The position numbers and the translations under genes were made by a program. Under the pieces are notes generated by a model. The model was not told where the DNA came from. It did not search any database and saw only the letters and a list, made by a program, of their open reading frames with translations. Below, piece by piece: positions 30,842 through 46,114 of a DNA stretch of 64,000 nt (its first letter is position 1; each line of letters starts with the position of its first letter). The stretch comes from an uncultured Saprospiraceae bacterium (GTDB lineage Bacteria; Bacteroidota; Bacteroidia; Chitinophagales; Saprospiraceae): assembly GCA_937927575.1 (NCBI GenBank), contig CALBEE010000028.1, positions 1 through 64,000 of the forward strand, written 5' to 3'.

Positions 30842-33800
30842 GTGATCAAGAAAGTAAGGAAGTGGATACTCTATGTAATACTTGGTTTCCTGTTATTGGG
30901 GACGGGCCTATACATAGCACTTCAGTTTTCCTCAGTGCAAAATTACCTCAAGGATAAGGCATTGGTATTAATATCAGAAAAATATCAAGCGGACTGGAGT
31001 ATTGGTACGATTCAAATCGACTTTTTCGATGAAGTAGTACTAGAAGATATACTTTTTTTAGATCAGCAAAACGATACATTGCTCATGGCGAATCGTTTGC
31101 ATGTGGATATAAGTTTATTCAGCATATTTTCAAAAAATATACATTTAGATCGTATAGAGATAGATGGGATGAATTCGAAACTCTACAATCTAGAAGGGGA
31201 ACGAATGAATTATGAATTTTTATTTCCAACAGTGGAGTCTCAAGACCTAGCATTAGAACAAGATAGCGAGAGTAGTGCGTGGACTTACATGGTAGATCTT
31301 CTTCGATTGTCAGATGCTCGCATTTATTATAGAACAAACAGCCAGGAAATAGATTTTTCTACGTCCTTATTAAATGTAGAAATCGACGATTTTGATCTTT
31401 TGACTCAAAAACTAAATGTGGAAAATGTTCAAATTTCTAATGCAGCGGTCAAGATAGACTCTTACAATCAAGCTTCGAAGCAGGAACCTTTTGCTCTGCC
31501 TAATATGGGATGGAAAATTGATTTGCACCATTTAGAGATAGATGATTCCGATTTAAAAATGTTGTCGGATTCTCCGATTAAGAGTACTAATCTTCATTTA
31601 TCTTTAAAGGATGTATTGTGGCAAGATTCATTGCTTAAAGTAGATGTGGAAAATGTAAAAGGCGATTTTCTAGATAATATCAATTTAAAGAATGCGCAAG
31701 GAGAAATCGTAATGATAGAAGATCAATTACAAATTAATAATCTAAAATTGGAAACTTCTAATGATGTAATCGCTGCCAACGCACTAACATATAATTTCAA
31801 TACGCAAGGGGTTTCAGCTAATTCTTTAGTTTCTAAAATAGGAGATCAGACATTACGCAATTTTAGATCTTTCATTCCAAAGTCTATTCGTCTCATAAAG
31901 CAGACAGAACTTAATCTTGCAGCTGAAACTATCACCTACGATCAGACGGCCATGTCGGCACAAAATTTATTGGTAACTTATGGCAAGGCTATACAACTTA
32001 ATGCAGATCTGAGTTTGACTAATTTAAGGAGTAGTGATATCGAAGTAAATGGCAATTTGAATCAAGCTAAATCGGATCTAGTCCTTTTGGATTTTATGTT
32101 GGATGATTTGAATATTCCAGATAGTCTATCTCAATTTAGAAATTTAAAACTTAGTGGCCTTCTAAGAGGTTCCAAGTCTAAGATGAATGTATCGCAGCTA
32201 GCGATCCAATTGGATGAAGTTTTTTCAGCTGAGCTAAGCGGCCTAATCAGTAATCTTAACGATAGCGATAAAGTATTTTTCGATGTTGCCTTCAGCGACA
32301 TGAAAGCAGATATCGATCAACTGCCTATCCCTACCATAGAAGGATTAGCTCTAGATAGCTTAGGAATAGCAAATTTCGTCGGAGATGTTAGAGGAGGAGT
32401 GAATGCATTGGAGCTAAATGGCGAATTGCAATCTAATCTTGGTAATTTAGTGACAGCTATTAGATTGAATAATCTTCAAGATTTCGAGAATTTATCCTAC
32501 CAAGGAAAAGTCGAAATGAAAGGATTCGATATAGGTACATTATTGCAACGCTCCGACTTAGATAAAATTAGTATTTCTTCTGAAGTGGATGGGGTAGGTG
32601 TAGACTTCGCAAATATGAATGCTAGAGTAAAGGGAACAATATCTGATTTCTCTTACAATGATTATAATTATGCGGATATAGATATTGATGCTTTTATATC
32701 GGATTCAAAAATTGATGGACATGTTGAGCTTGACGATTCGAATATAAAATTGAATTATGATGGCGTAATTTCGTTTGTAGATAGACAATCTATTTTTCAA
32801 TTTGAAACTTTAATTGATACAGTCAACCTACAAGCCTTAGGATTTTATAATAAAGCGTTAAATCTGAAGGGTCTCATCAAGTCAGATTTGAGATTACCCT
32901 TAAGAAAAAACACCAAAGGTTACTTAGATATTTACAATCTTGAGATTGATAATTCTAAGGAAGTGTTTTATGAAGATAGCATATTAATGTCTGCAGTAAA
33001 ATCTTCAGATTCGACTTATATAGATGTAAGGAGTGACTTCATGAGTTTAGATATTGATGGTCAGTTTGGAATTAGAGAATTACCCAAGGCCCTTATGTCT
33101 ATGGCTGATCATTATATTAATTTAGATTCAGTGATGGTAGAAGATTATGAGAGTAAATCTGTCAAGATGATAGGAAGCATCAACACACTTAAGCCTCTAG
33201 ATGTGATTTTAGCCAATACGTTAGTTCAATCAAAGCAGATCGATATGGATGTGGATTTTGATTTTACAAATTATCAGATAGAGGGAATGCTTACTGCGGA
33301 TAGTTTATTCTATGATGAGTACTTCTCTCGAGAAACAAAAATTGATATTACTACTCAATCAAAAACACTCTCCGTAGATGTTTTGGCGAAGGATAATATA
33401 GCGAATAATGTAGAAATTCCAATTGTATCCTTGAAGAATTGTTTTAAGAATCAACAGTTATTTTCTACCTTATTGGCTAAAGATGATGATGCACTACCCA
33501 AACTCCGCTTTAGTACTATAATCGAAAATACAGATCGAGCATTAACCATCTCATTGGAAGATAGTCTGATTTTAAATAGTAAAGAATGGTCAGCTAGTAA
33601 GGATAACTTCATGGAGTTTTCGAATGATCGTATATATGTAAGTGAACTTACTTTAACAGATCAAAATGAATATTTGAAAGTTTATAGTTCGGATGAATCT
33701 GGACAGGATTTAATATTTGATTTTCGTAATTTTAATATAGGACAGTTTACTACATTATTAACAAGTGAGCCATCTAAGCTAGTAGGTAATATCGACGGAA

Positions 33801-35650
33801 AAGTGGAAATACGTAATATCACTTCCGATCTCTATTTTGTCGTAAATGCTCAAGTTGATGACATAACATACGATTCTACAGCTGTAGGAGAGTTGACAGT
33901 AAAAGCGGAAGATAATCCTATATCTGGAATAGTAGAGGCTAGTGTTAGTTTGAAAGGTCCGCGGAATGATATCATTGGCTCAGGTACTTATAATACCAAT
34001 GATAGAGCTACAGATTTTGATGTTGATATCAATAATTTTCAGTTGATGCTTTTGGATCCTTTCCTCTCCGAAATCATGAAAGATAGTAAAGGAGATTTAG
34101 CGGGTCGATTGACCGTGGATGGTACTATAGATCGTCCGATTATTGACGGATCCGTTGTCTTAGATAAAGCAGTAACTACGATAGCAATAAACAATGCTCG
34201 GTATGCTATAGATAAACATAAGATAACATTTGACAATGATGCTATTGATATCGGTGTTTTAGATCTCTATGATACAAACGACAATGTTGCCTCTATTTCT
34301 GGTAAGATATATCATAATTTTTTAGAAGATATTAGACTAGATCTTGCTATCGATACAGATAAATTTATGTTTCTCAATACGCAACGAAGTGATAATCCAA
34401 TATTTTTTGGAAAGTTAGTATTAGATATGGAAGGTACAATAATAGGACCTATCTCATTATTAGATGTAGACGTATCTGCTAAAACTCTAGAAAATACGCT
34501 TGTCACATTATCTCCACTTTCTAGTGAATCTTTCGTACTGGAAGAGCCTTTTATAACTTATGGTAAACCAGATCAAGATGATGATCAAACATCAGAATAT
34601 TTATTAAAGTTGGCTAGAGCATTTCCTTTCAAGGTTAACCTATTGATGAATGTAACCAATGAGGCAGAGCTGAATATGGTTTTAGATCCAGTGACTGGAG
34701 ACAAAATTGTCGGCAAAGGTAAAGGTGATCTTAGGATCGTAATCAATCCAGATGGAAACCAAGAAATCTATGGTACATACACAGTTAGTGAAGGCTCGTA
34801 TAATTTTTCTTACGGTGATTTTGTATCTAAAGAGTTTAAAATAAATGAAGGAGGTACTGTAAAGTTTATAGGTGATCCATTAGGTGCAGTATTAGATATT
34901 GACGCTGTCTATAACGTATATACGACTACCTACGAACTTATCAAAAACGAGACATCTATCGATGATAGTGAATTGGAAGCTGCCAAGCGAAGAACGAATG
35001 TGGAAGTCTACTTAAGTCTTAATGGTAGTATCAACGCCCCTGTAATCAATTTAGATATAAAAGTGCCTGAGCTACAGTCCAGTAATTTGGTTTCTTCTAT
35101 TGATCGCAAGCTTAACGAATTACGTAATGATGCCAATGAACTTAATAGTCAAGTTTTCGGATTGCTACTGTTCGATAGTTTTCTTCTTTCGGATAATGCC
35201 TCAGCAGGATTTGGAAGTATTGGAAATAATATTGCATTAAGTAGTGTCAGTAACTTAATTACAAACCAGCTTAATAAATTTGCTGATAAAGCCATAAAAG
35301 GAGTTGATGTCAATGTCAACTTTAACTCCTACGATTCCAGTTATGCTAATAATGGATCCGGAGGAAATGTAACAGAAATAGGATTAGAAGTGAGTAAGCG
35401 TTTATTTAATGAGAGATTAAAAATAAGTGCAGGTGGTAATTTGGATCTCGTTGGAGATGGCACTTCCGAGTCATACTCTTCTTTTATAGGAGACTTTGTG
35501 ATTGAATATAAATTAACAGAGAGCGGAAATTATCGATTGAGAGTGTTTTCTAAAAGTAATTTTGATCGGATTGCTAGTGAAAACAATAATCGTAATGGAG
35601 TAAGTATTTTTTACAGTAAAACATTTGATTCTAAGACAGATGCTAAATAA
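30842..35650 (+). CDS. tamB: TamB-like translocation and assembly module protein
   Basis: A 1602-residue AsmA/TamB-type protein. One N-terminal membrane anchor (residues about 7-28) is followed by a very long series of beta strands forming the predicted hydrophobic groove, and by the C-terminal TamB (DUF490) domain around residues 1240-1590, with YGTYTVSEGSYNFSYGDFVSKEFKINEG and the end region LNSQVFGLLLFDSFL. In Bacteroidota, TamB acts with a BamA-type barrel in outer-membrane assembly or lipid transport. The start codon is GTG. The next gene overlaps it by 11 bases and encodes that barrel partner. Confidence 0.92.
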   Translation: MIKKVRKWILYVILGFLLLGTGLYIALQFSSVQNYLKDKALVLISEKYQADWSIGTIQIDFFDEVVLEDILFLDQQNDTLLMANRLHVDISLFSIFSKNIHLDRIEIDGMNSKLYNLEGERMNYEFLFPTVESQDLALEQDSESSAWTYMVDLLRLSDARIYYRTNSQEIDFSTSLLNVEIDDFDLLTQKLNVENVQISNAAVKIDSYNQASKQEPFALPNMGWKIDLHHLEIDDSDLKMLSDSPIKSTNLHLSLKDVLWQDSLLKVDVENVKGDFLDNINLKNAQGEIVMIEDQLQINNLKLETSNDVIAANALTYNFNTQGVSANSLVSKIGDQTLRNFRSFIPKSIRLIKQTELNLAAETITYDQTAMSAQNLLVTYGKAIQLNADLSLTNLRSSDIEVNGNLNQAKSDLVLLDFMLDDLNIPDSLSQFRNLKLSGLLRGSKSKMNVSQLAIQLDEVFSAELSGLISNLNDSDKVFFDVAFSDMKADIDQLPIPTIEGLALDSLGIANFVGDVRGGVNALELNGELQSNLGNLVTAIRLNNLQDFENLSYQGKVEMKGFDIGTLLQRSDLDKISISSEVDGVGVDFANMNARVKGTISDFSYNDYNYADIDIDAFISDSKIDGHVELDDSNIKLNYDGVISFVDRQSIFQFETLIDTVNLQALGFYNKALNLKGLIKSDLRLPLRKNTKGYLDIYNLEIDNSKEVFYEDSILMSAVKSSDSTYIDVRSDFMSLDIDGQFGIRELPKALMSMADHYINLDSVMVEDYESKSVKMIGSINTLKPLDVILANTLVQSKQIDMDVDFDFTNYQIEGMLTADSLFYDEYFSRETKIDITTQSKTLSVDVLAKDNIANNVEIPIVSLKNCFKNQQLFSTLLAKDDDALPKLRFSTIIENTDRALTISLEDSLILNSKEWSASKDNFMEFSNDRIYVSELTLTDQNEYLKVYSSDESGQDLIFDFRNFNIGQFTTLLTSEPSKLVGNIDGKVEIRNITSDLYFVVNAQVDDITYDSTAVGELTVKAEDNPISGIVEASVSLKGPRNDIIGSGTYNTNDRATDFDVDINNFQLMLLDPFLSEIMKDSKGDLAGRLTVDGTIDRPIIDGSVVLDKAVTTIAINNARYAIDKHKITFDNDAIDIGVLDLYDTNDNVASISGKIYHNFLEDIRLDLAIDTDKFMFLNTQRSDNPIFFGKLVLDMEGTIIGPISLLDVDVSAKTLENTLVTLSPLSSESFVLEEPFITYGKPDQDDDQTSEYLLKLARAFPFKVNLLMNVTNEAELNMVLDPVTGDKIVGKGKGDLRIVINPDGNQEIYGTYTVSEGSYNFSYGDFVSKEFKINEGGTVKFIGDPLGAVLDIDAVYNVYTTTYELIKNETSIDDSELEAAKRRTNVEVYLSLNGSINAPVINLDIKVPELQSSNLVSSIDRKLNELRNDANELNSQVFGLLLFDSFLLSDNASAGFGSIGNNIALSSVSNLITNQLNKFADKAIKGVDVNVNFNSYDSSYANNGSGGNVTEIGLEVSKRLFNERLKISAGGNLDLVGDGTSESYSSFIGDFVIEYKLTESGNYRLRVFSKSNFDRIASENNNRNGVSIFYSKTFDSKTDAK

Positions 35651-37949
35651 CAATGGTTTAAGTAAAGATGGCCTGCAACTGAGTTTCATACTTTTTATTG
35701 TGGTATTGTGCTCGAGTTGTAGTTTGACTAAAAGACTGGGAGATAAGGATCTTGTGTATATGGGCACCACTATAAATGTGTCCGATGAAGATAATGCGAA
35801 ATCAGTGCAGAGTTTTGATAGCGAAATAAATGCGATACCACCCAAGGGTACACGGACTGGTATTGGAAATATTTATACAGGTTTATATAATATTTATGAG
35901 TCCACAGGAGATAAAGGATTTCGTCATTGGGTGAAGCATAAGTTAGGGGAGCAACCTGTCATTTATGAAGATAATATTGTAAAAACAGCCGAAGCCAAAC
36001 TGAGCTACTATCTTAATGGTAAAGGATTTTTTAGCCATTCTGTAAGTTGTGATAGTGTACGTAAAGATCGAGAAGTAAATGTGAATTGTGCTATACGTTT
36101 GAATGATAGATATACCATCGATAGTATAATATTTCCAGTTGACTCTACTTATGCAGCTCTAAAATTAGATGATCGATTAAGGCGTGCCATCATAAAAGAA
36201 GGTGAATATTACGATAGAGCTAGATTAGATTTTGAGAGGAGTAGATTATCGGCAATGGCTGGAAATATCGGGTTCGCTGAATTTGGTTCTGATAATATCT
36301 ATTACCATGTAGATACGGCTAAGAATAATCAAACCGTTGACATTTATACCCAATTACTTACACCTACCGATTCGACAGAGCATACAAGATATACAGTGGA
36401 TCAAATAAATATTTATCCTAACTATACTTTAGATAAAAAGAATACGATTACACTTAATCGAAACGAAATTAGAGATGGCCTAATCGTACATGAGTATGAT
36501 CATTATTTAGATCATGGACTATTGGATCGATTGATCTTAGAGCAACCAGGAAAATATTATAATAGAAGTCTTGAGCGGAAATCTGTGAATAGGTTGCTAG
36601 ATCTTGGACTCTTTAGATTTATAAATGTGAATAACGAGATTTCTGGCTCAGGTAAAGAAGGTCACATAGTTCAAAATATCTTTCTTACACCAGAACGAAT
36701 GCAAAGTATTTCTACGGAGTTAGAAGTAAATAATCGATCAGGCAATTTTTTTGGTATAGGGGCTATTACCAGTTACTCACACAAAAATGTTTTTCGTCAC
36801 GCGGAGAAGTTGAAAATTTCTGCAAGTGGACAAGTGGAAGCCCAATTTGGAGATGAACTAAGTTTTATAAATAGTGCAGATGCCAATATTATCAGTTCTT
36901 TGACCTTCCCAAGATTTATAATACCCTTTATAAGTGTAAAAGAAAGCCTTAATTATATTCCCAGAACATCTGTAAGCTTACAATATAATTTTCAACGCCG
37001 AATTCAGTATTATACCTTCCAAGTAGCTACTTTAAAATTTGGGTATAAATGGAAAGAGACCGCTCGAAAAACGCACGAGTTTTATCCATTAAATATTAAT
37101 CAAATTCGAGTCACCAATAAAACGACAGAATTTCAGGAGCTTTTAGATGGAAATCCGAGGTTAGGACGATCATTTCAAAACGTACTCGTAGCGGGTCTGC
37201 AATATTTTTTCACCTATTCTGATCAGTCAGGTACTGCCGATAGGAATTATAATTACTTCAGAGGAGAATTAGAGACTAGTGGAAACTTATTGGGAGTAGT
37301 AACCCAAGCCGATAATGAAGATCCTACGAGCATCATAGGGACTAAAATAGCGCAGTTTAGTAAGGTTACCTTGGAATACAAACATTACTTTCCAGCTGGA
37401 GATTCTGATATTGCGACACGAATTATTCTAGGTGGCGGTTTGGCATATGGTAATAGTTTTGAAATGCCATATCTTGAACAATATCTTATTGGAGGATCTA
37501 ATAGTCTTAGAGCTTTTAGATTACGTGGAATCGGTCCGGGTAGCTTTTCTACAGACCCTATTACTCAAGGTGCCTTTGAACGACAATTTGTAGATCAGAC
37601 TGGAGACATGAAAATAGAAATGAATATGGAATGGAGGTTTCCGCTATTCAGTTATTTAAAAGGAGCCTTGTTTACGGATATAGGTAATATCTGGTTGGTG
37701 GATAATGAAGATGTTCCAGAGGGTAATTTTGCATTCGATAGATTTTACAAGGAATTGGGTATTGGTACAGGTTTAGGATTTCGATTAGATTTCGATTTTT
37801 TTCTAATACGCATGGATATTGCATTTCCAATAAGGTCACCAAAATTTGAAGAAGGTTTTCGTTGGCGAATTAAAGAATTTGATTTGCTAGATAGTGATTG
37901 GAGATCTGAAAATCTTAGATATAATTTAGGAATTGGGTATCCTTTTTAG
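35640..37949 (+). CDS. BamA/TamA-type outer-membrane assembly protein (lipoprotein)
   Basis: A 769-residue protein of the Omp85 superfamily. The N-terminus is a lipoprotein signal with LCSSC, unusual for enterobacterial Omp85 proteins but common for the TamA-like partner of TamB in Bacteroidota. POTRA-like domains occupy about 60-390, then a 16-strand barrel with the signature GGSNSLRAFRLRGIGPGSF (lid-lock motif) and the strand GLGFRLDFDFFLIRMDIAFPI. The longer frame opens with TTG at 35625; the ATG at 35640 fits better, giving an 11-base overlap with tamB. Confidence 0.88.
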   Translation: MLNNNGLSKDGLQLSFILFIVVLCSSCSLTKRLGDKDLVYMGTTINVSDEDNAKSVQSFDSEINAIPPKGTRTGIGNIYTGLYNIYESTGDKGFRHWVKHKLGEQPVIYEDNIVKTAEAKLSYYLNGKGFFSHSVSCDSVRKDREVNVNCAIRLNDRYTIDSIIFPVDSTYAALKLDDRLRRAIIKEGEYYDRARLDFERSRLSAMAGNIGFAEFGSDNIYYHVDTAKNNQTVDIYTQLLTPTDSTEHTRYTVDQINIYPNYTLDKKNTITLNRNEIRDGLIVHEYDHYLDHGLLDRLILEQPGKYYNRSLERKSVNRLLDLGLFRFINVNNEISGSGKEGHIVQNIFLTPERMQSISTELEVNNRSGNFFGIGAITSYSHKNVFRHAEKLKISASGQVEAQFGDELSFINSADANIISSLTFPRFIIPFISVKESLNYIPRTSVSLQYNFQRRIQYYTFQVATLKFGYKWKETARKTHEFYPLNINQIRVTNKTTEFQELLDGNPRLGRSFQNVLVAGLQYFFTYSDQSGTADRNYNYFRGELETSGNLLGVVTQADNEDPTSIIGTKIAQFSKVTLEYKHYFPAGDSDIATRIILGGGLAYGNSFEMPYLEQYLIGGSNSLRAFRLRGIGPGSFSTDPITQGAFERQFVDQTGDMKIEMNMEWRFPLFSYLKGALFTDIGNIWLVDNEDVPEGNFAFDRFYKELGIGTGLGFRLDFDFFLIRMDIAFPIRSPKFEEGFRWRIKEFDLLDSDWRSENLRYNLGIGYPF

Positions 37950-37983: not shown

Positions 37984-39228
37984 TTAACGATTAGCGATTA
38001 ATTTATCCATTTGAGCGGCTAGTCCATAATGCTCGTTGACACTGTTTTTTCTAAGTACGTTAGACATCAGAGCTACCATATATTTTCTATTAAGGGTATC
38101 TTGCTTTTCTATAATCGCAACACTATTCATATAGTTGAATCTATTGCCAGCATATTTCTTTTTGATGAACCCTGGCTCATCCTTAAAGCTATATAAACTA
38201 CCACTTTTAAAATATACGGCATCCTTTGCGATTGATCTGGAACCTGCATACCTTATTCTTCTATCTGTAAGATACATGAGTCTTTTTAATTCAAGTGATG
38301 AACGTTTATTAACCACCTTACCTTGTTCTAAAGCAAACATATACTTCATCATCCCTTTAGTACTACCGATACTGCCTCCCTGTCTGGGTACGTATCTTTC
38401 AGCTCCTCTTGTAAAAAATCCACCTAAGCGCCATTCATCTTCATCGATACCGATCTCTCTGAGTGGACAATTCATAATCTCCTCAGATAGATCTGATAGT
38501 ATGTCTTTGTCTGTAGATTCGAAAACCGCATCCATTTCTTCGTAACTTGCGCAATCATAATACACATCCAAAGTATGCATTAAAATTGCTTCTCTCATCA
38601 AAATGCTTGCAGCGGCATTACTACTCTTGCTGCACATATGATCTAGCCATTCGTAAAGGGTAAACTCATCTTTCTCAACTATGTGTCGAGAGTAATACTT
38701 ATCTTTTTTTATATCATAAAAAGGCACAGTATGATGATTAGGTACTGCCCACGGTCCTGCCTTTACTGTCTTAGTACATAGCACAGCTCTTATCATATCC
38801 CAATTATCACCATATATTCTTTCTAATTCATTAAATATTGCAATTGCTATAGCCAATTTTCCTACACTTCCAGGTTGATAACCAACATGATCTTTTCTGC
38901 TGGCATAAGTAATATTATTAGGGTCGGTAATATCCATGATAGACAATGAGTATTCGGGTTCTAATCTATCGAAGATTCTATCTATGGATTTTCGCATCAT
39001 ATCATTCTCTTCAGGCCACTTCAAGTTTTTTGTAAGTAAGTTTAGCTGGATATCTTCAAGCATCAGAAATGCTCCATCCTTTAACTTGCTATCGATAGTG
39101 GAATCCTGATATACTTTATACTGATACGCAAGCCTATTAATTCCAGTATACTTATAGCCATCTATAGGATAAGCATTCGCTGAAAGACATGCAATTATTA
39201 TAAATAGGATAAAAAGAAAATATTTCAT
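37984..39228 (-). CDS. secreted serine hydrolase, beta-lactamase/PBP fold
   Basis: A 414-residue protein with signal peptide (ending near ANA19). It has the three motifs of penicillin-binding-fold hydrolases: S121-V-G-K124 in PGSVGK, S202-S-N204 in KSSNAAAS, and KSG in YFKSGSLY. A class A-like Glu in an omega loop is not obvious, so activity on beta-lactams cannot be assumed; transpeptidase, esterase or peptidase activity are alternatives. A shorter paralogue is at 42481-43479 on the other strand. The gene follows the dikinase-like gene by 33 bases and also has an ECF-type promoter inside the end of that gene. Confidence 0.8.
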   Translation of the reverse strand: MKYFLFILFIIIACLSANAYPIDGYKYTGINRLAYQYKVYQDSTIDSKLKDGAFLMLEDIQLNLLTKNLKWPEENDMMRKSIDRIFDRLEPEYSLSIMDITDPNNITYASRKDHVGYQPGSVGKLAIAIAIFNELERIYGDNWDMIRAVLCTKTVKAGPWAVPNHHTVPFYDIKKDKYYSRHIVEKDEFTLYEWLDHMCSKSSNAAASILMREAILMHTLDVYYDCASYEEMDAVFESTDKDILSDLSEEIMNCPLREIGIDEDEWRLGGFFTRGAERYVPRQGGSIGSTKGMMKYMFALEQGKVVNKRSSLELKRLMYLTDRRIRYAGSRSIAKDAVYFKSGSLYSFKDEPGFIKKKYAGNRFNYMNSVAIIEKQDTLNRKYMVALMSNVLRKNSVNEHYGLAAQMDKLIANR

Positions 39229-39243: not shown

Positions 39244-39271
39244 TCGTACTTGAATTTAATCTTATTGTTCA
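39244..39271 (-). promoter_or_regulatory. ECF-type promoter, serine hydrolase
   Basis: TGAACA (39271-39266), 16 bases, GTACGATAC (from 39249), 21 bases before the ATG. It overlaps the last codons of the dikinase-like gene. Confidence 0.5.
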
Positions 39272-42159
39272 TCCAAGGCTAAATATTTGTTTTCATATTG
39301 GGGATCTAAGTCAGTCAGATAGCTAGAACTAATAGCTGATTTATTTTCAACAAAAGGCCTCACTTGAAAAAGCCATATTTTATCATCTTTAATTCCTAAT
39401 TCTATATCATATGGGCCATACTCACCAACGGTTTCGTCCATCTTTTTACTTATTCGATCGGCGATTTGTTTCAGCGCCAAAAGATCTTGATTTTCTAAAA
39501 CTGGGTCTATAAATGTGGTATAGGCATAAGTCGAGCCTCCAGATGTAGGAATGGTTCGGTATTTTGTTTCACGACCTGGTGAGATCAATTCTGAGTATCC
39601 TTTATTATACACAATATAACTTTCAGCCGATTGACCTTCTACAGCGCCTCCTACTCCTTTTGAGAAAGAGATACTCATGTCCTCATCACTTCCTCGAGAG
39701 ATTCCTTTAGTAATAATTACACCTGATTTATCTACATTGACGCTAGGTATAATAAGTATTGAGGGGTAAACATCTTCAGGATTTTCAAGATACTGTTGCC
39801 TCCATTGATAACTTCTGTCTGTGTATGGTGATGCCCACACTTGTTTAATGCCCTTGAGTATTTGGTCGCGATCTACGATATTAAAGAGAGTGAGATTGAG
39901 TCCAGCTCCAGTAAATTCTGGAAGATCTTCCATATTAGTATCACTCCGTAAAAATACAGGGATACTGCCGATGGATTTTCCGAAAATTTCTTTAAAATTA
40001 TTTTCAAGATTACTTACCAATGATTTTTTCAAAGGCATCTCTTCAATCTTACTTCTAAGAAATTCTAATTCTTGTAATGTTATACATTCGATTTCATTAA
40101 GATCTACTCTTTCTAAAAGCATATTCTTTTCATTTCTGAATATGCGCTTTAAATACTGCCAGTAGCTTTCTCCGATTCCTGGAATGTTTTGCTCCATATG
40201 ATCTTTGAATATGCCGAAAGGAATTATAACTCCTTCTACTACATTATCTGGAAATAGCACTTTAAGCTGACCAAGATTTGCTGCTTTAGGACCGCACCAC
40301 TTTCCTGAAAAACTAGCATCGATCTTTGACATATTTAGAAGACTATCTGGGTCAAGTATTATTTTTTCTGTAGAGATAGTGATTCTGTCTTTTTGTCTTT
40401 TCTTTTTATCGAAAAGTTTCCGTTCAACATCATTCATATCTTTGATTAATTTCAATACTATGGTTCCTTTAGGTGATACTGCGTAGAAGACCTCCTCACC
40501 ATTAAACTTTTGTAGATCTTTAAGTAGATCACCTGTGATCAAGGCATTAGGTATGGCCAAATTTCTGGCTAATAGTTGGACATGAGAAACAGGATTTCCT
40601 TCTTTTACATTTAATATACCAGCTACTGGCTTGAGATCAGCCGGTGGCCGATCAAATGCGTATATTTTGTTAGCATCTAATTCCATATTTTCAGTGATCT
40701 CTGTTAATACAGTGAGTACACCCTTCGCGATTCCTGGATTTAGTCCTTGAATACCTGAAACGTCGTTATCACCCATAATCATAGATGATGATTGCATTGT
40801 ATTATTGAAAAGAGTATTGAGTTTTTCGACAGTCCGTCCCATAGGTAATACCAGACTGGATCTTATTTTGTCATCCGTAAATCCATACACCAATGGTTCA
40901 AATTCATTAAACCGTTGCAAAGGTTCTGCATATAATGACTGTACCATTTGAGTGGACCATTGTAGTATTTTTTGTGTGGCGAATCGATAATGATCTAAAT
41001 GTTCCATACTTACTCTAGCTCCATAGAGCCAATCTATATCTTCTTTTACTTTAACATATTCCCATTGTTCTAAATATCCAGCTCCGTAAAGACCATCCGT
41101 GAGGTAGCATATTTTGTCTCTTATCTCAGACAAGGTGTGCGCTTCATAAATTGACAAATCTTGAATTAATATTTCTTCTAGGTGATTGCTCAAATCCAGC
41201 ATTTTTACTCTCGCTTCGCGCCATTTGGTATCATATATATTATCTCTGATATCTTTTAATAATACACATGTAGCCATTGCTCTAATTCGTGCAGGTGAGT
41301 TTTCGTGATTTGCTGCAAAATCATCAATGGATTTTTTAATATCAGAATCTTTAGGTAGATATCGACTATAATCTTTGAGTTCGGACATATCGAAAGGAGT
41401 GTATAAAACCTCCATGTTGTCCACCAAATTATTTAGATAGTTAAGTTCTTCTGTATTTAAGATTGATGCATTTTTTTCTCTCCATTGTTTCACCCCAAGC
41501 AGATCACTTTTAGATGGGTTATTATGAATTTTAATTCGCCATTCCATAAAGGATAATTCTTGGTCTGCTAGTAATTTCGAATATGCTCTTACCTTCTGAG
41601 AAGTTCTGTTGTCTTCTCCATGTGGTACATCTTCGGCTGCAAGGCGTATCAATAAATAATTATCCCTTAATCTAGAATCACTATTAGTAGTCCACTCTAA
41701 AAATTCTTGACCCCATTCCTGTTCATCTTCGATTTGTTTGGCACCTCTATAATTTTTGGCTTGTTGCAAAATCCAGCCATTATCTGCCTCATAAAGAAAA
41801 TTAGTGATTTGATATTGTTTGAGTCGACTGTTTTGATTTTTAGCATCCCAGAATTGATCATACTCTTCTCCGGTTAGAATTTGATCCAAGAAGATATGTT
41901 CTTTTTCAGCTAAAGCTGTGATCTTATCTTTATACCTAGCATGTTGAACTCCTTTTAAAGGCTCTGGACAGGGATCTCGAGCTTCTCTTACCGTACCATC
42001 CTCACAAAACCATTTAATATCCTTATATGGTCCCCTTTTATCTTCTTTAAGTTCTCGTAAATATTCTTGATTTATATTTTGTGCATAAGTGATATGAAAT
42101 GTACACCAGCTGAGAAATGAAATAATAGCTGATCGTATTAAAATTTGTTTTAGATGCAT
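39262..42159 (-). CDS. secreted dikinase-like protein (phosphohistidine domain + ATP-grasp)
   Basis: A 965-residue protein with a signal peptide (cleavage near YAQ27), so it acts outside the cytoplasm. After an N-terminal region of unknown fold (with Cys52 and Cys64 in WFCEDG and DPCPEPL) comes a phosphohistidine swivelling domain around residues 480-570 with His526 in SHVQLLARNLAIPN. The ATP-grasp (PPDK N-terminal type) domain follows from about 618 to 950: KWCGPKAANLGQL, VFLRSDTNMEDLPEFTGAG and WLFQVRPF. PEP synthase and PPDK have the reverse order and a C-terminal PEP-binding barrel, which is absent here; the order matches glucan water dikinases. The acceptor is unknown. It is co-oriented with the serine hydrolase downstream. 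Confidence 0.8.
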   Translation of the reverse strand: MHLKQILIRSAIISFLSWCTFHITYAQNINQEYLRELKEDKRGPYKDIKWFCEDGTVREARDPCPEPLKGVQHARYKDKITALAEKEHIFLDQILTGEEYDQFWDAKNQNSRLKQYQITNFLYEADNGWILQQAKNYRGAKQIEDEQEWGQEFLEWTTNSDSRLRDNYLLIRLAAEDVPHGEDNRTSQKVRAYSKLLADQELSFMEWRIKIHNNPSKSDLLGVKQWREKNASILNTEELNYLNNLVDNMEVLYTPFDMSELKDYSRYLPKDSDIKKSIDDFAANHENSPARIRAMATCVLLKDIRDNIYDTKWREARVKMLDLSNHLEEILIQDLSIYEAHTLSEIRDKICYLTDGLYGAGYLEQWEYVKVKEDIDWLYGARVSMEHLDHYRFATQKILQWSTQMVQSLYAEPLQRFNEFEPLVYGFTDDKIRSSLVLPMGRTVEKLNTLFNNTMQSSSMIMGDNDVSGIQGLNPGIAKGVLTVLTEITENMELDANKIYAFDRPPADLKPVAGILNVKEGNPVSHVQLLARNLAIPNALITGDLLKDLQKFNGEEVFYAVSPKGTIVLKLIKDMNDVERKLFDKKKRQKDRITISTEKIILDPDSLLNMSKIDASFSGKWCGPKAANLGQLKVLFPDNVVEGVIIPFGIFKDHMEQNIPGIGESYWQYLKRIFRNEKNMLLERVDLNEIECITLQELEFLRSKIEEMPLKKSLVSNLENNFKEIFGKSIGSIPVFLRSDTNMEDLPEFTGAGLNLTLFNIVDRDQILKGIKQVWASPYTDRSYQWRQQYLENPEDVYPSILIIPSVNVDKSGVIITKGISRGSDEDMSISFSKGVGGAVEGQSAESYIVYNKGYSELISPGRETKYRTIPTSGGSTYAYTTFIDPVLENQDLLALKQIADRISKKMDETVGEYGPYDIELGIKDDKIWLFQVRPFVENKSAISSSYLTDLDPQYENKYLALDEQ

Positions 42160-42480: not shown

Positions 42481-43479
42481 ATGATTATAGCGGTTAGGAA
42501 AATTTTGTTTAGTGTGATCTTGTTCTCAGCATTTAGTATATATGTAAGCGGGCAAAAGGAGGTAGATGTGAAAGAAGCTTTGCCTTACCCAAGTGAATTA
42601 TACGGTGAAATCAATGATAAGATTGATCGAGGGTTGCAGTATGCTCTCAATGAGGTAGTTTACAATAATAAGAAGTGGAAAAAATTAGTAAGCCAAAAGA
42701 GAATGGCTGTAGGTTTAGTGGATCTAAGGGATATGGGCAATCCCAAATATGCTGCGATCAATGGAGAGCATATGATGTATGCAGCCAGTTTACCCAAGAT
42801 AGCTGTATTGCTTACTGCGATGGTGGCCGTCAAGGAGAATTGTCTCAATTATGATGCTGCTTTAAAAAAGGATCTACGTCTAATGATAGCTAAGTCAAAT
42901 AATGCAGCAACTACACGAGTCATAGAACGACTTGGATTCGATAAGATAGCTTCTGTCATGAGAGATCCAAAGTATAATCTTTATGATATTGCAGAAGGTG
43001 GAGGCTTGTGGGTCGGAAAGAAATATGCGAAATCAGGGAAAAGAAAGCCTGATCCATTAAAGGGTTTAAGTCATGCTGCGACCGTAGAACAAGTGTGTAG
43101 ATTTTATACGCTTCTGGCTTATGGTAAACTTATAGATGATTACTATAGTCGTGAAATGATGTCCTACTTAATAGATCCTCAGCTGCATCATAAGTTCGTC
43201 AACACTTTAGATAAGGTTGCACCTAATGCAGATGTTTACCGTAAATCAGGATCATGGAGAACATTCCATTCCGATAGTGTTTTAGTATTTGGTGAGGATG
43301 GACGAAAGTATATTTTGGTAGCACTTATCAATGATGCTCAAGGATCCAAAATATGTAGAAATTTAGTTACAGCTGCGGAAAAAGTATTAGGATTGAAAGA
43401 TGAAGCACAATTACCTAATACGGACAATAAATCTTCTAGAACTCCTGTATTGACTTCTACAGGAAGAGAGTTGCCTTAA
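42481..43479 (+). CDS. secreted serine hydrolase, class A beta-lactamase-like
   Basis: A 332-residue protein with signal peptide (cleavage near SGQ25). Motifs: S103-L-P-K106 in AASLPKIAVL, S139-N-N141 in KSNNAATTR, and KSG in YRKSGSW. These are the catalytic serine/lysine, SDN-like and KTG-like positions of the beta-lactamase fold. It is shorter than the relative at 37984 and closer to class A enzymes, but the Glu166 region is not clear. It is divergent from the dikinase-like gene. Its 3' end overlaps the end of the transporter-like gene on the other strand by 23 bases. Confidence 0.8.
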   Translation: MIIAVRKILFSVILFSAFSIYVSGQKEVDVKEALPYPSELYGEINDKIDRGLQYALNEVVYNNKKWKKLVSQKRMAVGLVDLRDMGNPKYAAINGEHMMYAASLPKIAVLLTAMVAVKENCLNYDAALKKDLRLMIAKSNNAATTRVIERLGFDKIASVMRDPKYNLYDIAEGGGLWVGKKYAKSGKRKPDPLKGLSHAATVEQVCRFYTLLAYGKLIDDYYSREMMSYLIDPQLHHKFVNTLDKVAPNADVYRKSGSWRTFHSDSVLVFGEDGRKYILVALINDAQGSKICRNLVTAAEKVLGLKDEAQLPNTDNKSSRTPVLTSTGRELP

Positions 43480-46114
43480 GGGTTTCCTTCAGTTTTTTAT
43501 CAGGATATTTCGAGAGTATTTTTTTTATCTGATGGATATTTTTGACTTTGAGACCTATGCCCTCTAATGCAGCAGGTTCAAAGTTTTTTTGAGTAACCAA
43601 TTCGAGGGTAGGAATTAGTTGCCTTCTTATTCGGTAAGTCAATATTCCATCAAGATAATCTAGCGCCTTATCTTTTCTATTAGATTTTATAGCGTTATAG
43701 ATTACACCAATATCGTTACGTTGTGTAATTATGGCAAGATATATAAATACGTGTAAGATACTTGCATTCAGCTGCCTGTTGATTCCGCGATCTATTTTGC
43801 CCAGCTGGTGCTTATAATTTATATCATCACTATTTTTATATTCTTGCAGTAAAATAGATTTGCACATAGATAGATTTCTCATAGATCTAATTTCTCTTAT
43901 AAGTCTTATATGGTTTTTACGTTTATTAAAGTTTAAATGAGGAAATTTTTTCCGAAGGATATTGATGGTTTTTAATACGGCGCGGCGTACTCTTAGATTT
44001 TTAGCGTCTAGGAGTTTGAAAAGGAAGTTGAGATGTTTTTGACTATCAATGTATTGAAATACTGGTAGATAGTTGACCAATGCTTTTTGATCTTCAAATA
44101 TTAAGATACTTGCTTTATAAAGAAATCGTTTTGGATATTGCGCTATGGCTTTATGTAAAGTTTTTCTATTGCCTTCATTGACATTATCGTATTTAAGATC
44201 TACAAATAGCGCTGGAGGATGACCATATCCTATCGATCTTATGGCTTCTTTTTGTATATCTGGATCAAAGCTATGGTAAAGAGCAGATCTTACTAAATGA
44301 TATTTTTGTTTATATCTACTTTTGGTTATCGCTCTAAATATTTGTCCGATGTATTTTACATTGGCTTCGTTATTTTCATGAAAACTGATTCTATTATAAC
44401 TTTCATCGATACGGTCATACAGTTGATATATCTCTTTTTGTCGTGCATTATTTTCAATCGATTCAGCGAGTGCTGCTGTAATTAATGTGTATTGATAGTC
44501 TGTAGTATTAGCATAAATTAAATTTACTTCTTTAGGTGATTTAGCCATCATAATCAAAGAGTAATAAATAGCTTTTCTTACTTGTATAGAAGGATCATCC
44601 AAATGTCGCATCAAGGTTTGTCTCGCTTCATGTCGATAATCTTTTGCAAGTTTTAATATGGCAGATTTTCTCACTAAAACATCATCACTATTAATAAGAT
44701 CTAGTAAAATCGCCTTAGGATCTTTGCCTCGACTAATACTATTTAGAATGATTTCGTTAATGTAAATTTTCTTTGATTGAGGGCTTAGACTTTCATTCTC
44801 TACCATGGGCTGACTCTCACCCTTTACCATAAGTGATAGCTGGTGCGTATAGGTGATTTTGGATTTAAATATAAAATATATCCAAATCATAGTTACTGTA
44901 ATCGTGAGGGCCATGATATATTGTAAAGGTAGATCAAGTTGATTGACGATAAAATAAATAAGTATGCCAGCAGTACCAGTAGCCAGACTATCTACTACGA
45001 CATCTACTAATGTTTTAGCTTTATTTCGAAGTGATGGAGCTAATGGCATTATATTGATTTCGGTAGCCGTTTTATACACGCTTTGCTTAAGACTGCCTTC
45101 AATACACTTTAATGCAATAGCAAATCCTAATAGGGGAAATATTATAAAACATATTCCAACAATCAATAGAAGAATAGGCATTATAGACATACTTTTCGAT
45201 ACGCCCAATCGGTCTATTATTTTGCTTACTACAAATAACTGAAGAAGCAATCCAAACATATTTATATTCGAAAACCAAAAACCTAAAAAAGAAGTCAGTT
45301 CATCAGAAGTTTTTATACTATTAATTGCGACAAAATTAAATTGATAATCTACTAATTTGGATACAATGACACCCAAACCAATAATCAATGAAATATGCAA
45401 TACATGTTTATTTCTTACCGCACTAATATTAGCAGAAGTACTAGAACTAGTAGAAATATTATTTTGTCCCTCATCAGAATCTTGGCTGTAGTGGTAATTT
45501 AGTAAATACATAATATATCCACTAAATAATAAGAGAATTGCCGAAATTATGACTAATCCAGCACTACCTACTAAGGGTACGAGTATGCTTGTGAAATAAC
45601 CACCAAATACGCCACCTGCTATTGCTCCGGAACCTATATATGCATAGATCCTTTTGGCGTCTCTGATCGTTAATAATGATTGACAATACTGATAAAAATA
45701 TGTGATTGTTACTAAGGCGAATAACGATATATAAATGTACAGCAATATGCTCATCCATCCAGATAGTACTTCTAGATACAAAGAAATTCCTACAGCACAT
45801 AAGGTGACAATGTTTGCTGCATGATTAATTCCTATAGTTTTTATAAGAGATTTATTGACGGAGAAACGGCTTACGACATTATGGACAATAACAGCACTGA
45901 TGGCTATTAATACATAAGCTAATGGCATAATAGTAATACCGTGATAAGACAGCATGTTACTCGTAAATACGGGCTTTAGTATAAGCAGTATACTTATAAG
46001 TGTAAAAGCATTGATCTGAAGTAAAATAACTTTTCTTCTCTCTCCTTTACGCAGATCAAAATGCCTATCGAGAAGCAAATCAAGATAATTATATGATTTT
46101 TCTAAAATGTCCAA
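43457..46114 (-). CDS. ATP/ADP-translocase-like permease with HEAT-repeat domain
   Basis: An 885-residue membrane protein. Residues 1-430 hold about 12 hydrophobic segments (for example VILLQINAFTLISILLILKPVF and YIGSGAIAGGVFGGYFTSIL), resembling the NTP/NDP-exchange (Npt1/Npt2, TLC) or MFS fold. Residues about 460-885 are soluble and made of HEAT-like helical repeats, such as DVLVRKSAILKLAKDYRHEA and PSIQVRKAIYYSLIMMA. Fusion of a translocase-like permease to HEAT repeats is known in Bacteroidota and cyanobacteria. Substrate is unproven. It lies beside the secreted ATP-grasp protein, which makes nucleotide export an interesting possibility. Confidence 0.65.
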   Translation of the reverse strand: MDILEKSYNYLDLLLDRHFDLRKGERRKVILLQINAFTLISILLILKPVFTSNMLSYHGITIMPLAYVLIAISAVIVHNVVSRFSVNKSLIKTIGINHAANIVTLCAVGISLYLEVLSGWMSILLYIYISLFALVTITYFYQYCQSLLTIRDAKRIYAYIGSGAIAGGVFGGYFTSILVPLVGSAGLVIISAILLLFSGYIMYLLNYHYSQDSDEGQNNISTSSSTSANISAVRNKHVLHISLIIGLGVIVSKLVDYQFNFVAINSIKTSDELTSFLGFWFSNINMFGLLLQLFVVSKIIDRLGVSKSMSIMPILLLIVGICFIIFPLLGFAIALKCIEGSLKQSVYKTATEINIMPLAPSLRNKAKTLVDVVVDSLATGTAGILIYFIVNQLDLPLQYIMALTITVTMIWIYFIFKSKITYTHQLSLMVKGESQPMVENESLSPQSKKIYINEIILNSISRGKDPKAILLDLINSDDVLVRKSAILKLAKDYRHEARQTLMRHLDDPSIQVRKAIYYSLIMMAKSPKEVNLIYANTTDYQYTLITAALAESIENNARQKEIYQLYDRIDESYNRISFHENNEANVKYIGQIFRAITKSRYKQKYHLVRSALYHSFDPDIQKEAIRSIGYGHPPALFVDLKYDNVNEGNRKTLHKAIAQYPKRFLYKASILIFEDQKALVNYLPVFQYIDSQKHLNFLFKLLDAKNLRVRRAVLKTINILRKKFPHLNFNKRKNHIRLIREIRSMRNLSMCKSILLQEYKNSDDINYKHQLGKIDRGINRQLNASILHVFIYLAIITQRNDIGVIYNAIKSNRKDKALDYLDGILTYRIRRQLIPTLELVTQKNFEPAALEGIGLKVKNIHQIKKILSKYPDKKLKETLKATLFL

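Follow-up and report, generated by a model that had tools for sequence, protein, structure and literature searches.

A secreted dikinase, two secreted serine enzymes ("PIDGY" and "bla2") and a membrane protein that appears to join an NTT-type transporter domain to HEAT repeats (NTT-HEAT) are encoded close together on the 64,000-nucleotide stretch of DNA from an uncultured Saprospiraceae bacterium that was analyzed here (the window; Table 1). Genome comparisons show these four genes to be a discrete module that, as far as sequence can tell, is inherited as a unit even where its genes are scattered. The reading that we favor, with a probability of roughly 55%, is that of an envelope module in which NTT-HEAT would supply nucleotide, the dikinase would work on ATP in the periplasm, and the serine enzymes would act on the same acceptor. 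If true, this would be an ATP-powered machine for covalent modification outside the cytoplasm, in a space that is taught to be free of ATP, and would give the widespread NTT-HEAT fusions a function, the first role for any of them. In many marine Flavobacteriaceae and Saprospiraceae, dikinase chemistry would then reach as far as the envelope, and the combination of an intact ATP site with constant co-inheritance of a relative of ATP/ADP carriers makes an ATP supply to the envelope directly testable. Our literature search, which covered few subscription journals, turned up neither the four-gene module nor a comparable secreted dikinase.

Table 1. Genes of the four-gene module in the window and a decayed copy of one of them in a related genome.
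Feature	Coordinates	Strand	Length	Assignment
Secreted dikinase	39262..42159	(-)	965 aa	Domains from Pfam, alignment and AlphaFold2: signal peptide ~1-26; helical N-terminal domain ~30-455; swivel/phospho-His domain ~470-571 (His526); ATP-grasp domain 623-942
PIDGY, secreted serine enzyme	37984..39228	(-)	414 aa	Beta-lactamase2 fold
bla2, second secreted serine enzyme	42481..43479	(+)	332 aa	Beta-lactamase2 fold
NTT-HEAT protein	43457..46114	(-)	885 aa	Pfam, profile search and Foldseek: NTT/TLC-like major-facilitator membrane domain ~1-430; HEAT-repeat domain ~445-885
Decayed bla2 relic	L191:4506-4835			In-frame stops; rest of module absent from genome

Of 398 genomes searched from the order, exactly the same 30 contain the dikinase and NTT-HEAT; in these, full-length dikinases score above 1,100 bits (next-best match, 81) and NTT-HEAT proteins above 700 bits (next-best match, 236). 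The two genes are adjacent in 15 of these genomes and are separated by over 10 kb or by contig boundaries in the other 15, some of which may reflect assembly breaks. Both serine enzymes are present in all 30 module genomes, and at full length in none of 25 module-free relatives. Within genera that carry the module, three module-free species (G002, G069, and G110) are without all four genes, and another genome from a genus rich in the module (G230) has kept a bla2 relic only, with two in-frame stops, a cysteine in place of the SLPK serine, and 52% identity to an intact copy. This is how genes are lost when none of them is of use without the others. Such losses within genera, together with the unlinked cases, are a stronger argument than the chance figure for the co-occurrence (~1e-45), which ignores kinship and is not usable as a probability.

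Gene neighborhoods give the same picture. Across 81 dikinase loci (80 from named genomes plus the window, several of them stopping at contig edges), we counted the dikinase 81 times, PIDGY 80 times, NTT-HEAT 66 to 68 times, and bla2 65 times, and the next commonest neighbor 13 times. All 10 tested loci without an adjacent NTT-HEAT gene, 9 of them with long flanks, carry one elsewhere in the genome. We therefore rejected mobile or chance clustering, since the co-occurrence persists without linkage and other neighbors are not common to the loci, and a resistance cassette is unlikely given how strictly even scattered genes of the module are inherited together over deep lineages. In a sample of 392 genomes from across the phylum, the dikinase occurs in 14, and the module's clade of NTT-HEAT in 12 of these 14 and in none of the other 378; other NTT-HEAT clades occur without this dikinase. 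The two deepest dikinase genomes (G579 and G595) encode the dikinase, PIDGY, and bla2 side by side and have more distant NTT relatives only. As a separate observation, the module adjoins genes for a large TamB-like protein and then a TamA/TamL-like outer membrane protein in the window (30842-37949, assigned by eye), and at other loci the module has no orthologs of these two beside it.

The preliminary description of the dikinase gene had placed a phosphohistidine domain (His526) ahead of an ATP-grasp domain and noted that the barrel of PEP synthase was missing, and both observations hold. The Pfam ATP-grasp family PPDK_N matches the window's protein at residues 623 to 942 (E=1.9e-30) and is present in all 46 family members. 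The swivel domain is more divergent: The PEP-utilizers family PF00391 remains below threshold at residues 510 to 548 of the window's copy (E=0.3) and reaches E<=0.01 in 14 of 46 orthologs, weakly (best 5.5e-4), and phmmer aligns residues 472 to 550 to the swivel domain of PEP synthase with His526 opposite the catalytic histidine. A Pfam search for the PEP/pyruvate barrel PF02896 gave no match. His526, K625, R738, E744, D745, D918, E920, Q932, and R934 are invariant in an alignment of 46 sequences with members down to 42% identity, which rules out a degenerate ATP site. PPDK_N with its conserved Lys, Arg, Asp/Glu, and Gln residues and a catalytic histidine on a swivel domain thus place the protein in the PPDK/PEP-synthase superfamily.

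An AlphaFold2 model (mean pLDDT 86.7, pTM 0.83) is laid out as a signal helix, a large helical domain up to residue ~455, a small alpha/beta domain in which a helix starts at His526, and the ATP-grasp domain. Within the N-terminal part, a small region of strands precedes an all-helical remainder. For these first 455 residues, no Pfam match holds up in the family as a whole and a sequence search of the PDB was empty, in agreement with the preliminary description, which had left the N-terminal part unassigned. With the ATP-grasp part, Foldseek found rifampin phosphotransferase (5hv6) as the best match (TM-score 0.84 by target), along with HpeI and PEP synthase; these matches appear to be driven by the ATP-grasp domain and not by the N-terminal domain. 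The dikinase has no match in PHROGs, and a genome scan that recovered no relatives with the single sequence recovered 193 with the alignment.

The domain order had previously been likened to that of plant glucan and phosphoglucan water dikinases (GWD and PWD). Plant GWD1 and PWD do have a phosphohistidine domain before a C-terminal PPDK_N domain, no PEP barrel, and an SHVxxxARN-like motif, so that the likeness in order stands, but a kinship is not supported. The order also occurs in several other secreted protein families of Bacteroidota and is therefore not a GWD signature, and the GWD1_pHisD model (PF22973) does not match the window's dikinase even at E<=10 (a paralog of the dikinase gives a weak 16.8 bits against a cut-off of 27), on which grounds we rejected membership in the plant GWD family. 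Unlike the plant enzymes, the dikinase is bacterial and secreted, with a different, helical N-terminus and without carbohydrate-binding modules: Pfam searches, checked across the family for the N-terminus, revealed no GWD accessory domain and no carbohydrate-binding or starch-binding family. Nothing points to a glucan, which is unsupported as the acceptor. PEP synthase and PPDK share the ATP-grasp domain and the swiveling histidine with the dikinase, whereas the latter has them in reverse order and lacks the PEP barrel. We have filed the protein, on its sequence features, as a putative new branch of the His-swivel dikinase superfamily distinct from GWD.

Where the dikinase acts is indicated by its N-terminus. 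A hydrophobic N-terminal segment is present in 80 of 81 ortholog reading frames (80 named genomes plus the window), preceded by K/R in 78 of those 80, and this signal feature is retained while the sequence of the start regions diverges. A lipobox is found in 1 of the 81, and the window's protein has no T9SS sorting tail, so that we rejected the dikinase as a lipoprotein or T9SS cargo; it is therefore most likely, as predicted from these features, a soluble periplasmic protein. C52 and C64, conserved in all 46 dikinases, would suit a disulfide in an oxidizing compartment. The signal peptide noted in the preliminary description is thus a property of the family, and the two objections raised there, a mis-called start that would leave the protein in the cytosol and a loss of essential ATP-grasp residues, do not apply because signal peptide, His526, and ATP-binding residues are all conserved.

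ATP is normally absent from the periplasm. The preliminary description had noticed the puzzle that this poses for a dikinase outside the cytoplasm, but it missed a relative of NTT-type carriers encoded 1.3 kb away that may resolve it. In the mechanism that we propose, NTT-HEAT in the inner membrane would exchange cytosolic ATP for periplasmic AMP or ADP and Pi. In the dikinase, periplasmic MgATP would bind to the ATP-grasp domain and give up its beta-phosphate to His526, so that AMP and Pi are released. The swivel domain would bring this phosphate to whichever acceptor the helical N-terminal domain holds. The acceptor could be an envelope molecule (glycan, peptide, or lipid-linked) that would either retain the phosphate or become activated for a ligation; the serine enzymes might cut, transfer, or remodel the same molecule. 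Co-occurrence shows a common pathway for the four proteins, not the order of its steps. For the more specific proposal that free-living Bacteroidota use an NTT-HEAT exchanger to bring ATP into the periplasm, with the secreted dikinase and two serine acyl-enzyme partners phosphorylating or ligating an envelope polymer there, we would give slightly less than even odds.

Both serine enzymes belong to the Pfam family Beta-lactamase2. The PIDGY gene follows the dikinase gene 33 bp downstream on the same strand, and the divergent bla2 gene lies 321 bp from the dikinase gene and overlaps the end of the NTT-HEAT gene by 23 bp. Three motifs are invariant in each: SxxK (S121-V-G-K124), S202-x-N204, and K341-S-G343 in PIDGY, and S103-L-P-K106, S139-x-N141, and K255-S-G257 in bla2. 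While these satisfy the SxxK, SxN, and KxG motifs of class A beta-lactamases, models of that class give 12 to 13 bits against cut-offs of 320 to 500, and inspection of the family consensus revealed no conserved ExxxN deacylation motif. With scores so far under these cut-offs, the two proteins are better seen as putative PBP-like acyl-enzyme hydrolases or transferases. That the dikinase is always accompanied by two enzymes of the PBP/beta-lactamase class with active-site serines would also suit a real module with a different chemistry. In the manner of the prodigiosin-type ligases PigC and RedH, the dikinase would power a ligation or condensation by way of a phosphorylated intermediate, the PBP-like enzymes would work on the same envelope peptide as transacylases or peptidases, and no phosphate would stay in the product. 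The PigC and RedH models are indeed among the ATP-grasp matches of the dikinase. However, they span the shared ATP-grasp domain only, which PEP synthase and rifampin phosphotransferase models match too, and the N-terminal domain has no recognized fold, so that we consider this alternative unlikely.

The nucleotide supply in our favored reading depends on the identity of the membrane protein. Its C-terminal part matches Pfam HEAT_2 (1.6e-12), and the Pfam TLC family of ATP/ADP transporters matches 27 of 38 orthologs, with the window's own copy below threshold. A profile of the membrane domain retrieved only two sequences from the PDB, Arabidopsis NTT1 (9j3j, 1.1e-15) and an ATP/ADP translocator (9j3n, 2.6e-15), and Foldseek ranked AtNTT1 and Chlamydia pneumoniae NTT1 ahead of other major-facilitator proteins for the structural model. 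HEAT repeats together with these TLC, profile, and structural matches thus identify the protein, by sequence and predicted fold, as an NTT-HEAT fusion that has fold and family profile in common with NTT ATP/ADP translocators. Fusions of this type were described in 2017 across free-living bacteria, with no function known for any there (PMC5381601).

It differs from plant NTT1 in the residues K155, E245, E385, and K527, which are important for transport in the latter (PMC4256464). The NTT-HEAT clade retains an acid at E385 (D256) only and has non-charged residues at the other three positions, according to a mapping that rests on a weak profile alignment and is supported by the fit of K, E, E, and K at one offset. 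We regard the loss of three charged residues as the main weakness of the module reading, in which the substrate and direction of NTT-HEAT are putative. The TLC match below threshold in the window's copy, the more distant NTT relatives of G579 and G595, and the NTT-HEAT proteins that occur without this dikinase also weigh against that reading. Since the microsporidian transporters ThNTT1 and ThNTT3 are also without three of the four residues and still carry ATP, ADP, GTP, and GDP (PMC4256464), the loss is compatible with nucleotide transport. It also favors, as does the uncharacterized state of NTT-HEAT proteins (PMC5381601), an alternative in which NTT-HEAT moves a substrate other than ATP or imports nucleotide, while the dikinase uses another donor or runs in reverse, so that a phosphorylated compound of the envelope would yield, with AMP and Pi, the ATP to be imported. 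Against this decidedly unlikely scenario, ATP/ADP translocators are the closest relatives of NTT-HEAT with solved structures, the dikinase has invariant ATP-site residues, and a set of basic positions in the membrane domain that are invariant or K/R throughout (K47, R151, K154, K253, K336, K343, K348, and K367) suits an anionic substrate. Other NTT-HEAT proteins, without this dikinase, have a second recurrent neighborhood (L179:8940-15830; also L180-L182, L188, and L190) with an Omp85-domain protein, a lipoprotein-like protein with the motif (S/T)(K/R)PY..KT.DPD, and, at some loci, a calcineurin-like phosphoesterase.

Dikinases for small molecules occur widely (PMC12167813), and the best fold match of the dikinase is the ATP-grasp domain of one that acts on rifampin. 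The protein could thus be a periplasmic phosphotransferase for an incoming small molecule, which it would detoxify or capture, and the two enzymes of beta-lactamase fold would be hydrolases that accompany it. Like the dikinase, rifampin phosphotransferase (RPH) and the two-component dikinases HpeHI and PpsAB combine an ATP-grasp fold with a swiveling-histidine mechanism and have no PEP barrel. However, these enzymes are cytosolic, RPH is ordered as ATP-grasp, substrate domain, and histidine instead of helical domain, histidine, and ATP-grasp, and the putative helical substrate domain of the dikinase is unrelated in sequence to its counterpart in RPH, HpeHI, and PpsAB. The rifampin phosphotransferase model gives 58 bits against a cut-off of 999, which together with the differing order sets the dikinase apart from that family. 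Resistance cassettes do not resemble a set of genes that is scattered and yet strictly co-inherited over deep lineages, and the poor fit of the companions to class A beta-lactamase models and their lack of a conserved ExxxN on inspection do not suit such a role, leaving a detoxifying phosphotransferase highly improbable.

A dikinase that has no catalytic activity outside the cell, and has a role in binding or structure instead, would accord with a periplasm normally without ATP but is hardly credible, as its catalytic residues are all invariant in 46 orthologs and kept in other secreted families. These other secreted dikinase-like proteins, some of them with T9SS sorting tails, retain the corresponding His, Lys, Arg, Glu, and Gln, so that selection for ATP use outside the cytoplasm seems to recur. 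The T9SS-tailed proteins of Bacteroidota resemble the dikinase in being secreted, in their order of histidine before ATP-grasp, and in their intact residues; they differ in their N- and C-termini (CARDB, SprB, and sorting tail) and are not tied to the four-gene module. They are probably ATP-grasp phosphotransfer enzymes sent to the cell surface. One of them, a paralog of 1234 aa with CARDB, SprB, a T9SS sorting tail, and intact catalytic residues in the same order, is encoded in the window's own genome (L024:3152-6856, contig C60), and it has relatives at L025-L028 and L198, the last of which also bears a sorting tail. Further secreted PPDK_N proteins of 670 to 813 aa with the same order and residues are found in other genomes of the order (L195:4571-6598, L196:5289-7301, and L197:4329-6770).
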